Assembly: GCF_003595175.1 (NCBI RefSeq)
Contig: NZ_CP032419.1
Coordinates: 1-64,000, forward strand
DNA length: 64,000 nt
Origin: Pseudomonas cavernae
GTDB lineage: Bacteria; Pseudomonadota; Gammaproteobacteria; Pseudomonadales; Pseudomonadaceae
Direction of reading: 5' to 3'
The notes under the pieces: model-generated
Told to the model about the DNA's origin: nothing
The model's input: the letters and a program-made list of their open reading frames with translations, nothing else
Database searches by the model: none
Position numbers and translations under genes: made by a program
In this document: positions 59,952-62,904 of the stretch, piece by piece
How positions within the stretch are numbered: position 1 is the stretch's first letter
How the letters are laid out: each line of letters begins with the position of its first letter

Positions 59952-60583
59952 CCCGCACCCAGAAAACCGTCTTCGTTCTCATCGCTCTGGTCACCCTGGT
60001 ATTCGGCCTGACCGTCTACAAGGTGCTCGATGGCCGCAGCCAGGGCGACCCGGCGGCGCTGATCGATGCCGGCATCATCCTCCTGCCGCAGAGCCGCGAC
60101 CTGCCGGCGCTGAGCCTGAGCAATCAGGACGGCCAGGCGGTGCAAGTCGATGAATTGAAGGGCAAGTGGAGCCTGCTGTTCTTCGGCTACACCTTCTGCC
60201 CGGACATCTGCCCGACCACCCTCGCCCAGCTGCGCGAGCTCAAGGGCAAGCTGCCGCCGGAGGCGCTCGAACGCTTGCAGGTGTACCTGGTCAGCGTCGA
60301 CCCGCAGCGCGACACGCCGGTGCAGCTCAAGCAATACCTGGGCTATTTCGATCCCAGCTTCCAGGGCCTGACCGGCGAGCTGGTCAACATCCAGAAGCTC
60401 GCCAACGCGGTGAGCATCCCGTTCATCCCGGCGGATACCCGCAAGCCCAACTACACCGTCGATCACAGCGGCAACCTGGTGATCATCGGTCCGGACGGCA
60501 CTCAGCGCGGCTTCATTCGCGCGCCGTTAAACAACCAGAAGCTCGCCGTGCAGCTGCCGCAGTTGCTGGCGACGGACAACTAG
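59948..60583 (+). CDS. SCO1/SenC family copper chaperone
   Basis: SCO proteins deliver copper to CuA of subunit II. The 211-residue protein has one N-terminal helix (about 7-25) and a thioredoxin fold with C84-PDI-C88 in [14 protein letters not shown] and a metal-binding His in [12 protein letters not shown]. It ends the canonical oxidase operon. The natural terminator of the operon is probably the hairpin at 61951, now displaced by the IS element. Confidence 0.94.
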
Positions 60584-60647
60584 CCCTCGCACCAGGACGT
60601 GCCGATGCCCGATGCGGCCCATTTCAGTCGCCTGGACGGCACTGCTT

Positions 60648-60681
60648 GGCGGGTTACGCCGCTGCGCGGCTAACCCACCCT
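60648..60681. repeat. Interrupted palindromic repeat at the IS insertion site
   Basis: GGCGGGTTACGCC and GGCTAACCCACC face each other as imperfect arms, ending in ACCCACCCT where the IS starts. Joined across the IS, the sequence reads ACCCACC-CT-ACAC. The outer CCACCCTAC end recalls other repeat arms in this window (34298, 13003 on the reverse strand). Confidence 0.6.
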
Positions 60682-60689
60682 TGTATCTC

Positions 60690-60885
60690 GACTATCGTCC
60701 CGTGAGGGGGATAGTCCCCGACTGATCATCGGGGGAGGGCCTGGAAGTCGTACCCACCCTAAGGCCTCGAGCCAGCTTTGTAGATAGTGCTCCAGCCCTC
60801 CACACTCACTCGAACAGTCCGAACGGTATCTAGGGCCCACGACAGGTGAGAGCTCGCATTCACAAGGTAGGGCCGGGTGCAGTGA
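60690..60885 (+). ncRNA. Candidate IS110 bridge RNA
   Basis: A 5' stem-loop is formed by GACTATC (60690) and GATAGTC (60710). A target-binding loop is closed by GGG-CTGGA (60737-60745) with TCCAG-CCC (60791-60798) and capped by GGC-CTCGA-GCC. It holds ACCCACCCT (60752-60760), identical to the left flank 60673-60681, and TGTAG (60779-60783), complementary to CTACA at 61907-61911. A donor loop closed by TCACT (60806) and AGTGA (60881) holds ACGGTATCTA (60823-60832), identical to the right end 61900-61909, and ACAAG (60862-60866), complementary to the left end CTTGT. The RNA ends are approximate. Confidence 0.8.
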
Positions 60886-60919
60886 TGATCATCCTGAATG
60901 GATTAGCTGAGGAGTCTTC

Positions 60920-61891
60920 ATGTCCAGCATCGTCGGCATCGACATCGCCAAGCACAGTTTCGACATCGCCACCCTGCAAACCAACGGTAAGTACCGCACT
61001 AAGGCCAAGTTGGCCAACAGCGCCGCCGGTTTCCAGGTACTCCAGGAGTGGCTGCAGCAGTACGCCGAGCCGGGTGCCTGGCTCGTGATGGAGGCCACCG
61101 GCACCTATCACGAGGCGCTGGCCGAGCACCTGCACGGCCTGGGCTACCGGGTCTGTGTGATGAATCCCGCGCAGCTTGCCAGCTACGCCCGGAGCCAGCT
61201 GCAGCGGGTCAAGACGGACCAGGTCGACGCCAAGCTGATGGCCAGCTACGGCCAGCGGCACGTGGATGAGTTACGCGCCTGGCAGCCCGAGCCACCGGCG
61301 ATACGCCGCCTGCGCGCGTTGGTGCGGCGTCTGCAGGACCTCAAGGAGATCGAGCAGATGGAGCGCAATCGCCTGGATGTCGCCGATGCCAGCGTGCAGG
61401 ATTCGATCCGTTCGGTGCTGGAGCATGTCGAGCAGCAGATTGCCGAGACCCTGCAGGCCATCCGGGCACACATCGATGACGATCCGGGCCTGCGCGGTAA
61501 GCGCGATCTGCTGGTCAGCATCGATGGCATCGGCGAGCAGACGGCCGCCTTGCTCCTGGCGGAGCTGGGCGATCCGCTACAGTTCAAGAATGCCCGGGCG
61601 ATCACCGCGTTCGCCGGGTTGAACCCGAAGCTGCAGGAGTCGGGCCAGCACAAGGGCCACGTGCGCATCTCCCGCGTGGGCTCGGCTCGTCTGCGCACCG
61701 GCCTGTACATGCCGGCGGTCGTCTCGCTGACCCACAATCCGGCCATCAAAGCCCTGGCACAGCGCCTGCGAGCCCGCGGCAAAGCCGGCAAGCAGATCGT
61801 CTGCGCGGCGATGCGCAAACTGCTGCACATCGCCTATGGCGTACTCAAGTCGGGCCAACCCTTTGATGCTCGCCTGGCCCTTGCCCACTGA
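60920..61891 (+). CDS. IS110-family transposase (bridge recombinase)
   Basis: The 323-residue recombinase has a RuvC-like N-terminal domain with the DEDD residues Asp8 (GIDIAK), Glu58 (VMEATGTY), Asp100 and Asp103 (KTDQVDAK). A coiled-coil follows (about 130-190), then a Tnp domain with ISIDGIGEQTAALLLAELG-like helices and the serine of QESGQHKG at 241, the place of the catalytic Ser in IS621. The end GVLKSGQPFDARLA is also IS621-like. All catalytic residues are present, so the protein looks active. GAGGAG precedes the ATG. Confidence 0.96.
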   Translation: MSSIVGIDIAKHSFDIATLQTNGKYRTKAKLANSAAGFQVLQEWLQQYAEPGAWLVMEATGTYHEALAEHLHGLGYRVCVMNPAQLASYARSQLQRVKTDQVDAKLMASYGQRHVDELRAWQPEPPAIRRLRALVRRLQDLKEIEQMERNRLDVADASVQDSIRSVLEHVEQQIAETLQAIRAHIDDDPGLRGKRDLLVSIDGIGEQTAALLLAELGDPLQFKNARAITAFAGLNPKLQESGQHKGHVRISRVGSARLRTGLYMPAVVSLTHNPAIKALAQRLRARGKAGKQIVCAAMRKLLHIAYGVLKSGQPFDARLALAH

Positions 61892-61950
61892 GTGACAAGA
61901 CGGTATCTACACAAGCGCTGCTCGATACCTAACCGATACGTGGCCAATGC

Positions 61951-61979
61951 AAAAGCCCGCTCGAGTGAGCGGGCTTTTT
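61951..61979. terminator. Terminator downstream of the IS (probably of the oxidase operon)
   Basis: AAAAGCCCGCTC and GAGCGGGCTTTT form a strong hairpin with T-runs on both strands. It lies in the original right flank of the IS, so before insertion it stood just after the SCO gene, convergent to metQ. Confidence 0.9.
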
Positions 61980-61993
61980 GCTTTCCAGTGTGT

Positions 61994-62134
61994 AGAACCT
62001 GTTCAAGATCGTCGCGAGCGCAGGTCAGGCAAGGCGAAAACAGGCGAGGGCGCGGAGTTTACAGTTGTAAATGAGCAGCCCGAGCCTGTTTTCAACGCAG
62101 CATGACCAAGCGCAGCAGATATTGGACGGGTTCT
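61994..62134 (+). mobile_element. MITE-like 141-bp repeat, copy B
   Basis: Ends AGAACCTGTT and GACGGGTTCT are imperfect terminal inverted repeats. The interior (GGAGTTTACAGTTGTAAATG, CAACGCAGCATGACCAAGCG) aligns with copy A read on the minus strand. Its right end coincides with the last base of the metQ stop codon. Confidence 0.75.
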
Positions 62135-62904
62135 CAGAACGCTGGAACGATGGCGCCCTTGTACTTCTCCAGGATGAACTGCTTCACCTCCGGGCTGTGC
62201 AGCGCGGTCACCAGCTTCTGCATGGCGGCGCCGTCCTTGTTGTCGGGGCGCGCCACCAGGATGTTGACGTACGGCGAGTCGGCGCCTTCGATCACCAGCG
62301 CGTCCTTGGCCGGATCGAGCTTGGCCTCCAGGGCGTAGTTGGTGTTGATCAGGGCCAGGTCGACCTGGCTCAGCACGCGCGGCAGGGTCGCGGCTTCCAG
62401 CTCACGCACCTTCACGCTCTTCGGGTTCTCGGCGATGTCCTTCGGCGTGGCGGTGATGCTCTGGTTGTCCTTGAGCTTGATCACCCCGGCCTTGTCCAGC
62501 AGCAACAGGGCGCGGCCGCCGTTGGTGGCGTCGTTGGGGATCACCACGGTGGCGCCCTGCGGCAGCTCGGCGAGGCTCTTGATCTTGGTCGAATAGGCGC
62601 CCAGCGGCTCGATGTGCACGCCGGCGACGCTGACCAGGTTGGTCTTGCGGCTGCTGTTGAACTCGTCCAGATACGGCTGGTGCTGGAAGAAGTTGGCGTC
62701 CAGACGCTTCTCGGCGACCTGCACGTTGGGCTGCACGTAGTCGGTGAACACCTTGACGTTCAGCTCCACGCCTTGCTTGGCCAGGGTCGGCTTGAGGAAC
62801 TCGAGGATCTCCGCGTGCGGCACCGCGGTGGCGGCCACGCTCAGCGCTTCCGCCTGGGCGGAGAAGCTGGCGACTACGGCCAGGGCTGCGAACAGTTTCT
62901 TCAT
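62134..62904 (-). CDS. metQ: Methionine ABC transporter substrate-binding protein
   Basis: MetQ binds methionine in the periplasm for the MetNI importer. The 256-residue precursor has a signal peptide (MKKLFAALAVVASFSAQAEA) without a lipobox cysteine, so it should be a free periplasmic protein rather than the lipoprotein of E. coli. NlpA-family stretches are VPHAEILEFLKP, YVQPNVQVAEKRLDANFFQH and [18 protein letters not shown] favours the second of two adjacent ATGs (62904 over 62907). The stop abuts the MITE-like repeat. Confidence 0.95.
   Translation of the reverse strand: MKKLFAALAVVASFSAQAEALSVAATAVPHAEILEFLKPTLAKQGVELNVKVFTDYVQPNVQVAEKRLDANFFQHQPYLDEFNSSRKTNLVSVAGVHIEPLGAYSTKIKSLAELPQGATVVIPNDATNGGRALLLLDKAGVIKLKDNQSITATPKDIAENPKSVKVRELEAATLPRVLSQVDLALINTNYALEAKLDPAKDALVIEGADSPYVNILVARPDNKDGAAMQKLVTALHSPEVKQFILEKYKGAIVPAF

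Follow-up and report, generated by a model that had tools for sequence, protein, structure and literature searches.

The element near the right end of this window raises the question of how an insertion sequence chooses the places that it enters, and whether the guides that can be read in its leader keep matching the neighbouring DNA when its relatives are compared. Bridge RNAs have been in the literature since 2024, and work is under way to develop them into programmable recombinases; the targeting of REPs by IS110 elements has been known since 2003-2006. The window (the whole stretch of 64,000 nucleotides from Pseudomonas cavernae that was analysed) contains a complete IS110-group element at positions 60680-61908, as checked on the sequence. 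A preliminary description of this DNA had placed in it a bridge RNA with four guides that match DNA in place, and all its coordinates proved correct base for base. Considering the evidence as a whole, the element is very probably an intact insertion sequence that belongs to the IS110 group and the IS621 type, specialised in a host REP palindrome and with guides that are rewritten with the REP type.

Organization of the element, its recombinase and its copies

All the features lie on the forward strand, in the order REP arm, CT, 238-bp leader, 972-bp gene, 15-bp right end, CT and host. To the left of the insertion there is a REP-like host palindrome (60648-60679, GGCGGGTTACGCCGCTGCGCGGCTAACCCACC), whose 3' arm is the left target, followed by the left CT core (60680-60681), which corresponds to the single CT of unbroken REP sites. 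The left end (LE, 60682-60919) is a non-coding leader of 238 bp that carries the bridge RNA, and the recombinase (transposase) gene occupies positions 60920-61891. The right end (RE, 61892-61906) has 15 bp and its last bases, ACGGTAT, are the left donor; the right CT core (61907-61908) and the right target, the host sequence ACACAA (61909-61914), come after it. Hence, the long non-coding LE upstream of the gene and the short RE that are characteristic of the IS110 group are both present.

The gene product has 323 residues and shows the two domains of the IS110 family, the RuvC-like DEDD domain (PF01548, 100.5 bits, cut-off 29) and the C-terminal Tnp domain with the catalytic serine (PF02371, 84.8 bits, cut-off 21.3). 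It also matches the NCBIfam model "IS110 family RNA-guided transposase" with 223.8 bits versus a cut-off of 140 and, among solved structures, IS621 (E 4.4e-66, 226.6 bits, residues 5-317) and ISCro4 (224.7 bits). The catalytic residues of IS621 are D11, E60, D102, D105, and S241 (PMC11208158), and the alignment shows that the five of them are kept as D8, E58, D100, D103, and S241 (the chain numbering is 2 higher). The proposal that this protein is a programmable recombinase is supported by its relationship to IS621, the complete set of catalytic residues, the RNA-guided transposase model, and a guide geometry like that of IS621. Since the nearest proteins outside its own genome are only 86-87% identical (best 120 of 7999 scored candidates in a collection of 5.8 billion), the element is probably undescribed and without a name.

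The genome of P. cavernae (4.95 Mb, one contig) contains nine PF01548 matches, eight of which are full copies of the element, with 0 to 28 differences in 1229 bases and the 972-bp frame open in all eight. Given these eight near-identical copies with open frames, the element is possibly active. A search with the left end allowing up to 2 mismatches returned eight exact sites and two sites with 2 mismatches (seven for the reversed control); because the exact sites are the eight copies themselves, no solo left ends were found in the genome by this search. The ninth PF01548 match (L009, G000:C1:2611917-2612339) is a divergent IS110-type frame of 175 aa, and a frame near it resembles a tyrosine recombinase by eye.

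Concerning the junctions of these copies, the insertion point is one and the same position of a REP-like palindrome, GCTAACCCACC|CT, in the eight full copies, all of which have the left flank GCTAACCCACCCT. The eight flanks belong to different REP loci and, judged by eye, the second member of an inverted REP pair was hit in six copies (L003-L008). The right flanks are more varied: CTACACAA in the window copy, which has one mismatch to the extended right guide TTTGTAG, CTACAAAA in L003 and L006, and CTACAGAA, CTACGAAA, and CTACGAAT among the others, with CCACAAAA in L004. The left core is CT in all eight copies and the right core in seven. The odd copy, L004 (G000:C1:798145-801588), has a right core CC next to a left core CT, which may come from insertion into a CC-core target or from a later mutation.

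Unbroken REPs in the genome serve as paralogous empty sites, with a single CT. The unoccupied 11-base target ACCCACCCTAC occurs 79 times exactly and its reversed control 0 times, and the 18-base site CTAACCCACCCTACNAAA is found 80 times with up to 2 mismatches, seven of them exact (control 0). The joined flanks of two copies were also searched in 57 genomes (own included) and gave no usable orthologous empty site. Those of the window copy matched 32 of the 56 other genomes, always with the best match within query 1-116, which is the end of the neighbouring SCO1 gene and stops short of the insertion point; those of the second copy matched five of the 56, in short or repeat stretches only.

Eleven differences clustered at the equivalent of window positions 61454-61496 are common to L003, L005, and L006, a pattern that points to gene conversion, either among the copies or with another element. 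Differences in blocks of this kind would also be expected from a fossil, an element that no longer uses its RNA and owes its copies to homologous recombination between REPs. However, this is an unlikely explanation for an element whose frame is open in 8/8 copies, whose guide fits a REP frequent in the genome, and whose copies occupy eight different REP loci.

The bridge RNA and its guides

The leader contains two 5' hairpins, hairpin 1 (60690-60716), in which 8/11 helix pairs show changes on both sides among 28 leaders, and hairpin 2 (60717-60733). They are followed by the target-binding loop with its closing stem (60734-60801) and the donor-binding loop with its closing stem (60803-60884), the limits of both coming from a single-sequence fold. 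The consensus fold, built with 28 of the 46 leaders, has 52 pairs in eight helices and includes the two 5' hairpins, the donor-binding loop, and the target-binding loop, which leaves the guide unpaired. Changes on both sides were found in 29 of the 52 pairs. There were 144 cells with such changes versus 46.7 after shuffling and 15-33 with the partner strand slid, although the fold was derived from the same 28 leaders and is favoured over the slid versions. The single-sequence minimum free energy was no better than that of shuffles (z 0.07) and was dropped as structural evidence, covariation being used instead. The loops of the putative bridge RNA are therefore supported by covariation. No Rfam family matched the leader in a search of 60000-62600, where only two sub-threshold Leu_leader matches appeared, both outside the leader.

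The RNA presents the complete set of bridge-RNA guides, left and right for the target and left and right for the donor, and the four pairings of the preliminary description were recovered on the sequence. The left target guide (60752-60760), ACCCACC plus the core CT, reads ACCCACCCT, identical to 60673-60681. The right target guide is TTTGTAG (60777-60783), whose GTAG pairs with the CTAC of the right junction; within it, TGTAG (60779-60783) is complementary to CTACA (61907-61911). In the donor-binding loop, the left donor guide, ACGGTAT plus CT (60823-60831), equals the right end of the element, the identity extending to ACGGTATCTA (60823-60832 and 61900-61909), while ACAAG (60862-60866), the right donor guide, is the complement of the left-end CTTGT (60680-60684). 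In IS621 the guides comprise 7 bases plus CT on the left and CT plus 2 or more bases on the right (PMC11208160).

The order of these guides also bears on the type of element. ISPa11, an IS1111 element, targets Pseudomonas REPs too (PMC11187229; PMC1525189), which would be the reason to assign the present element to the IS1111 type, with a seekRNA whose order is the other one. That assignment is improbable in the extreme, since the long non-coding region lies upstream of the gene, a downstream one is absent, and the 15-bp RE has no room for a downstream seekRNA; moreover, the bottom-strand guide precedes the top-strand guide, as in the IS110 type (PMC11187229). The element is thus treated as one of the IS110 type in what follows.

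To the match of a single copy, chance has to be considered. The left-flank 9-mer matches its own leader 9/9 at one place, with 6/9 as the next best, while 8 of 5000 random window 9-mers also match some stretch of the leader perfectly. A match of this kind in one copy is unlikely to arise by chance and is not decisive alone; the question is settled by the joint change of guide and flank in relatives.

Relatives came from three sources: genome contigs, whose scan contributed the best 80 of 146 loci; 199 genomes of the genus, the own one among them, of which 22 matched the leader; and the own genome. Ninety loci were parsed for the gene start, loci without one being left out; 11 with less than 55% identity were set aside and, of the 79 others, L090 was dropped because its leader is off the contig. 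The resulting set has 78 insertions with 46 different leaders and at least 55% protein identity. Seven of the 78 rows repeat the flank of another row, which leaves 71 distinct flanks. At contig ends, five rows have a left flank shorter than 15 bases and 16 a right flank shorter than 8 bases or none, and there a single insertion may have been counted once for each half, in BN417 above all, with no effect on the distinct guide/target pairs.

The preliminary description expected the flanks of related copies to follow the loop sequences, and this is what the comparison revealed. With the left guide read at the position aligned to that of the window, the insertion's own left flank equals the seven non-core guide bases in 76 of the 78 insertions, and 73 match in 9/9 bases, core included. 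The exceptions are L080, with 6/7 and an odd base that could be a G-U wobble, and L091, with 4/7. Seven additional insertions (from G113, G078, and G041) fetched later match 9/9 without exception. Counted at 9 bases, there are 21 guides in 23 distinct guide/target pairs; at the seven non-core bases there are 19 guides. The 23 pairs average 6.83 matches out of 7 versus 3.48 when shuffled (sd 0.35; the maximum of 20000 shuffles was 4.87).

Furthermore, the extent of the guide can be read from the covariation itself. Among 44 distinct 15-base pairs (positions -13 to -1), positions -7 to -2 exceed all 2000 shuffles, and position -1, with little variation, is matched in 44/44 (a level that 41 of 2000 shuffles reach). 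Further upstream, positions -8 to -12 stay close to chance, -11 being the strongest of them (113/2000 as high), and position -13 lies slightly above chance (22/2000). Because covariation is clear only at positions -7 to -1, the left guide consists of 7 bases plus the core.

The right target guide shows little of this variation. It ends in GTAG in 68/78 leaders and in ATAG in the other 10, and the right flank starts with CTAC in 69 of the 70 rows with at least 4 known bases and with CCAC in one. Covariation with the flank is weak at its bases 5 and 6 (32/49 and 19/49 pairs, levels reached by 12 and 5 of 3000 shuffles, respectively) and absent at base 7 (12/49; 637/3000). In the very RNAs whose left target guide varies, the donor side is almost invariant: the left donor guide is ACGGTATC in 77/78 leaders (ACGATATC in L059), and the right one reads ACAAG in 55/78 and GCAAG in 23/78, L109 showing ATCAACAAG there. 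The base after the left donor guide, the partner of the core T, is T in 52/78 and C in 26/78 (CC for CT).

Could these short matches be a product of chance or composition in GC-rich DNA, with the target chosen by the protein alone? The guides are certainly short, perfect matches of random 9-mers do occur at the rate given above, and the right-guide extension is weak. Nevertheless, 19 guides follow their targets at exactly seven positions, the bases upstream behave near chance, and the donor side hardly changes; chance matching is ruled out by the shuffle controls and is, in our estimation, very improbable. The same can be said of a second possibility, that the 9 bases left of the junction are a repeated end of the element and not a host target. 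As all eight own copies have GCTAACCCACC on the left, they cannot place the left end by themselves. However, the genome contains 79 unbroken occurrences of ACCCACC-CT-AC, and in the BN417 copies that have one leader in common (L072, L073, L074, L077, L081) the matched bases form the arm of a longer host palindrome, with varying neighbours. A repeated end is accordingly given very little probability, and the 9 bases are taken as host target. The target of the BN417 guide is TTCCACCCTAC.

At the level of sequence, the comparison has shown a conserved two-loop RNA in the leader, in which the donor loop matches the joined ends of the element, the target loop matches both flanks, and the 7-base guide changes together with its target. 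By analogy with IS621, the element would be excised as a circle with the junction RE-CT-LE, predicted to read ACGGTAT-CT-TGTATCTCGAC, and the RNA would be made from the left end. Recombinase and RNA would then pair the circle donor (ACGGTAT-CT-TGT) with the REP target (ACCCACC-CT-AC), and strand exchange at the CT core would leave one CT on each side. The nearly constant right half-guide GTAG would read the CTAC at the edge of the REPs that are hit, and the variable left half-guide the 3' arm of the REP stem, being rewritten when a lineage moves to a new REP type. A scan of 60500-62100, a range outside which the circle junction lies, found no sigma-70-like promoter; in IS621, the promoter arises at the circle junction (PMC11208158).

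Other observations were made on guides and their contexts. In the P. putida-type leaders L108, L069, and L049 the guide has G or A at the position of the core T, and the flanking core is CT. In L170 (G113:C1:1486500-1489500) the flank equals the guide context over 16 bases, AAGCCGAGTACGCCCT, beyond the 7-base guide. Copying of the target into the guide was considered for this identity (L055/L170) and set aside, given that the same identity is absent from two other copies in that genome. Beyond chromosomes, three records of a plasmid collection match, one of them over 93% at 71.7% identity, and the element is absent from the phage collection searched. BLAST also revealed an element on a plasmid of Xanthomonas sacchari, which was kept outside the counts. 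Its flank is GCCGCTCCT, and the best match of this flank in the leader is GTCGCTCCT (8/9; next best 7/9); the odd base is a possible G-U wobble, the guide context is the usual one, and CTAC stands on the right.

Host REPs and the rewriting of the guide

The guides were placed on a tree of 38 distinct full-length recombinases carrying the 19 guides. Poorly supported in 12 of its 35 inner branches, this tree requires 22 guide changes, where 18 is the least possible and shuffled guides need 29.8 on average (0/200 as low as 22). Some guides recur in separate places, GCCCACC with four changes and ACCCACC and ATCCACC with two each. The closest pair with different guides is L055 and L093, with 96.9% protein and 94.6% leader identity and three of the 7 guide bases different; L055 compared with L091 and L093 gives about 97% of the protein and about 95% of the leader in common, again with 3/7 guide bases different. 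Close relatives thus differ far more in their guides than in the rest of the RNA.

Regarding the hosts, exact 11-base targets were counted in 16 carrier genomes, for the guides of some carriers only and with the reversed pattern as control. ACCCACCCTAC, with its 79 sites in the own genome (control 0), reaches 18 in G078, which has the same guide, 14 in G060, 10 in G041, and at most 7 elsewhere. For GCAGCTCCTAC, the carriers G011, G034, G100, and G129 have 323, 57, 42, and 790 sites, respectively (controls 25, 26, 27, and 25), and the other 12 genomes have at most 13. GCCGCTCCTAC is found 394 times in its carrier G110 (control 68), 129 times in G078, which has another guide (control 52), and at most 11 times elsewhere. 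Therefore, the guide fits an abundant REP of the host in G000, G011, G129, and G110, and less clearly in G034 and G100.

An abundant host REP behind every guide is not the rule, since this fails in G041 and G113, and in G078 other REP types outnumber its own. GTCCGCCCTAC has only two sites in its carrier G041 (control 2) and 29 in G078, and GTACGCCCTAC, searched in six of the 16 genomes, has four in its carrier G113 (control 2) and 43 in G078. Such ill-fitting guides could belong to recent arrivals from another host or be relics. In two of these genomes, two copies of a related element lie within about 3.3 kb of each other (L051 and L173), divergent in G078 and in the same orientation in G041.

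The REPs tabled in PMC2817692 begin with GTAG or GTGG. Of 13 taken from that table, five hold, in reverse complement, a guide of this family followed by CTAC, and the other eight hold none; the guides found are ACCCACC (in two REPs), GCCCACC, GCCGCTC, and CGCGCTC, that is, four of the 19. A further candidate, CCAGCTCC, was checked against the REPs listed there and showed no match.

The own genome has a single Y1/RAYT-like gene (26 bits, cut-off 23), L150 (G000:C1:765320-765649, minus strand), flanked by the inverted repeats GTAGGATGGGTTGAGCG..ACCCATC, which depart from the targeted stem by one base. That this gene makes the targeted REP is unsupported, the adjoining REP being ACCCATCC and the target ACCCACCC.

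From these data, a tentative proposal can be made, with rather less than even confidence, that the subfamily is an RNA-guided parasite of REPs. Its constant half-guide GUAG would read the GTAG tetranucleotide typical of REPs thought to be mobilised by RAYT transposases, each insertion would cut a REP off from that tetranucleotide, and the variable half-guide would be rewritten again and again, in small localised blocks, toward the REP stem abundant in the host. The proposal is based on the four of 19 guides present in the REPs of PMC2817692 and on the guide block that differs between L055 and L091/L093. The few exact targets in G041 and G113, the commoner REPs of other types in G078, and the different REP beside the own RAYT-like gene argue against it. 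That the GTAG half-guide exploits the REP tetranucleotide is an attractive hypothesis.

A leader-like stretch was also seen in L052 (G082:C60:184650-184844), with 72% identity over query 5-202. The 2855-base locus showed no recombinase gene recognisable by tblastn, whose matches had E 0.98 and worse, and the stretch is perhaps a solo bridge-RNA remnant.

These insertions form a natural set of 19 left target guides and matched targets on one conserved scaffold. The set delimits the 7-base guide window and contains some naturally occurring mismatches in guide and core. Moreover, comparing near-identical elements, L055 and L091 for example, offers a direct test of how bridge RNAs are reprogrammed in nature.

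Comparison with known systems

Bridge RNAs with two loops and a CT core are established (PMC11208160, PMC11208158), and REP targeting is known for IS621 (PMC11208160) as well as for ISPpu9 and ISPpu10 (PMC1525189). The element resembles IS621 of E. coli in its DEDD/serine recombinase with five catalytic residues, the two-loop RNA in the leader, the guide of 7 bases plus CT, the CT core, and the REP ending in CTAC. However, its protein is clearly diverged, and the target stem and the donor (ACGGTAT-CT-TGT) are different. Covariation of RNA and target has been described over thousands of IS621-like elements (PMC11208160), which may include some of the relatives used here.

ISPpu10 and ISPpu9 of P. 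putida KT2440 also insert at one fixed place of the REP, with a 2-bp direct repeat (PMC1525189), and a bridge RNA structure of ISPpu10 is mentioned in an extended-data legend of PMC11208160. No records with these names were among the matches listed, and the P. putida relative L108 has the guide GCCGCTC, unlike that of the present element. The tnp mRNA of ISPpu9 has a 5' UTR of 244 nt that is complementary to the stable antisense RNA Asr9 (PMC8450116). If that UTR were the bridge RNA of ISPpu9 (compare window 60682-60919), a bridge RNA would be under the antisense control of Asr9.

ISPa11 of P. aeruginosa likewise targets a Pseudomonas REP through an RNA encoded by the element, but it is an IS1111-type element whose RNA lies downstream of the gene and whose guides come in reverse order (PMC11187229). 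Natural reprogramming, in which RNA guides and targets changed together, has been described for ISEc11/ISXne4 and ISEc21/ISMch6 (PMC11187229). Those are two pairs, whereas here there are 19 guides in one subfamily, with tree and shuffle controls. No paper on a comparable series of REP-tracking guides was found among the titles and abstracts listed, a search that most subscription papers and preprints fall outside. The mechanism, that of the IS621 bridge RNA, and the targeting of REPs were already known, and what this subfamily adds to them is a clean natural series of guide rewriting.
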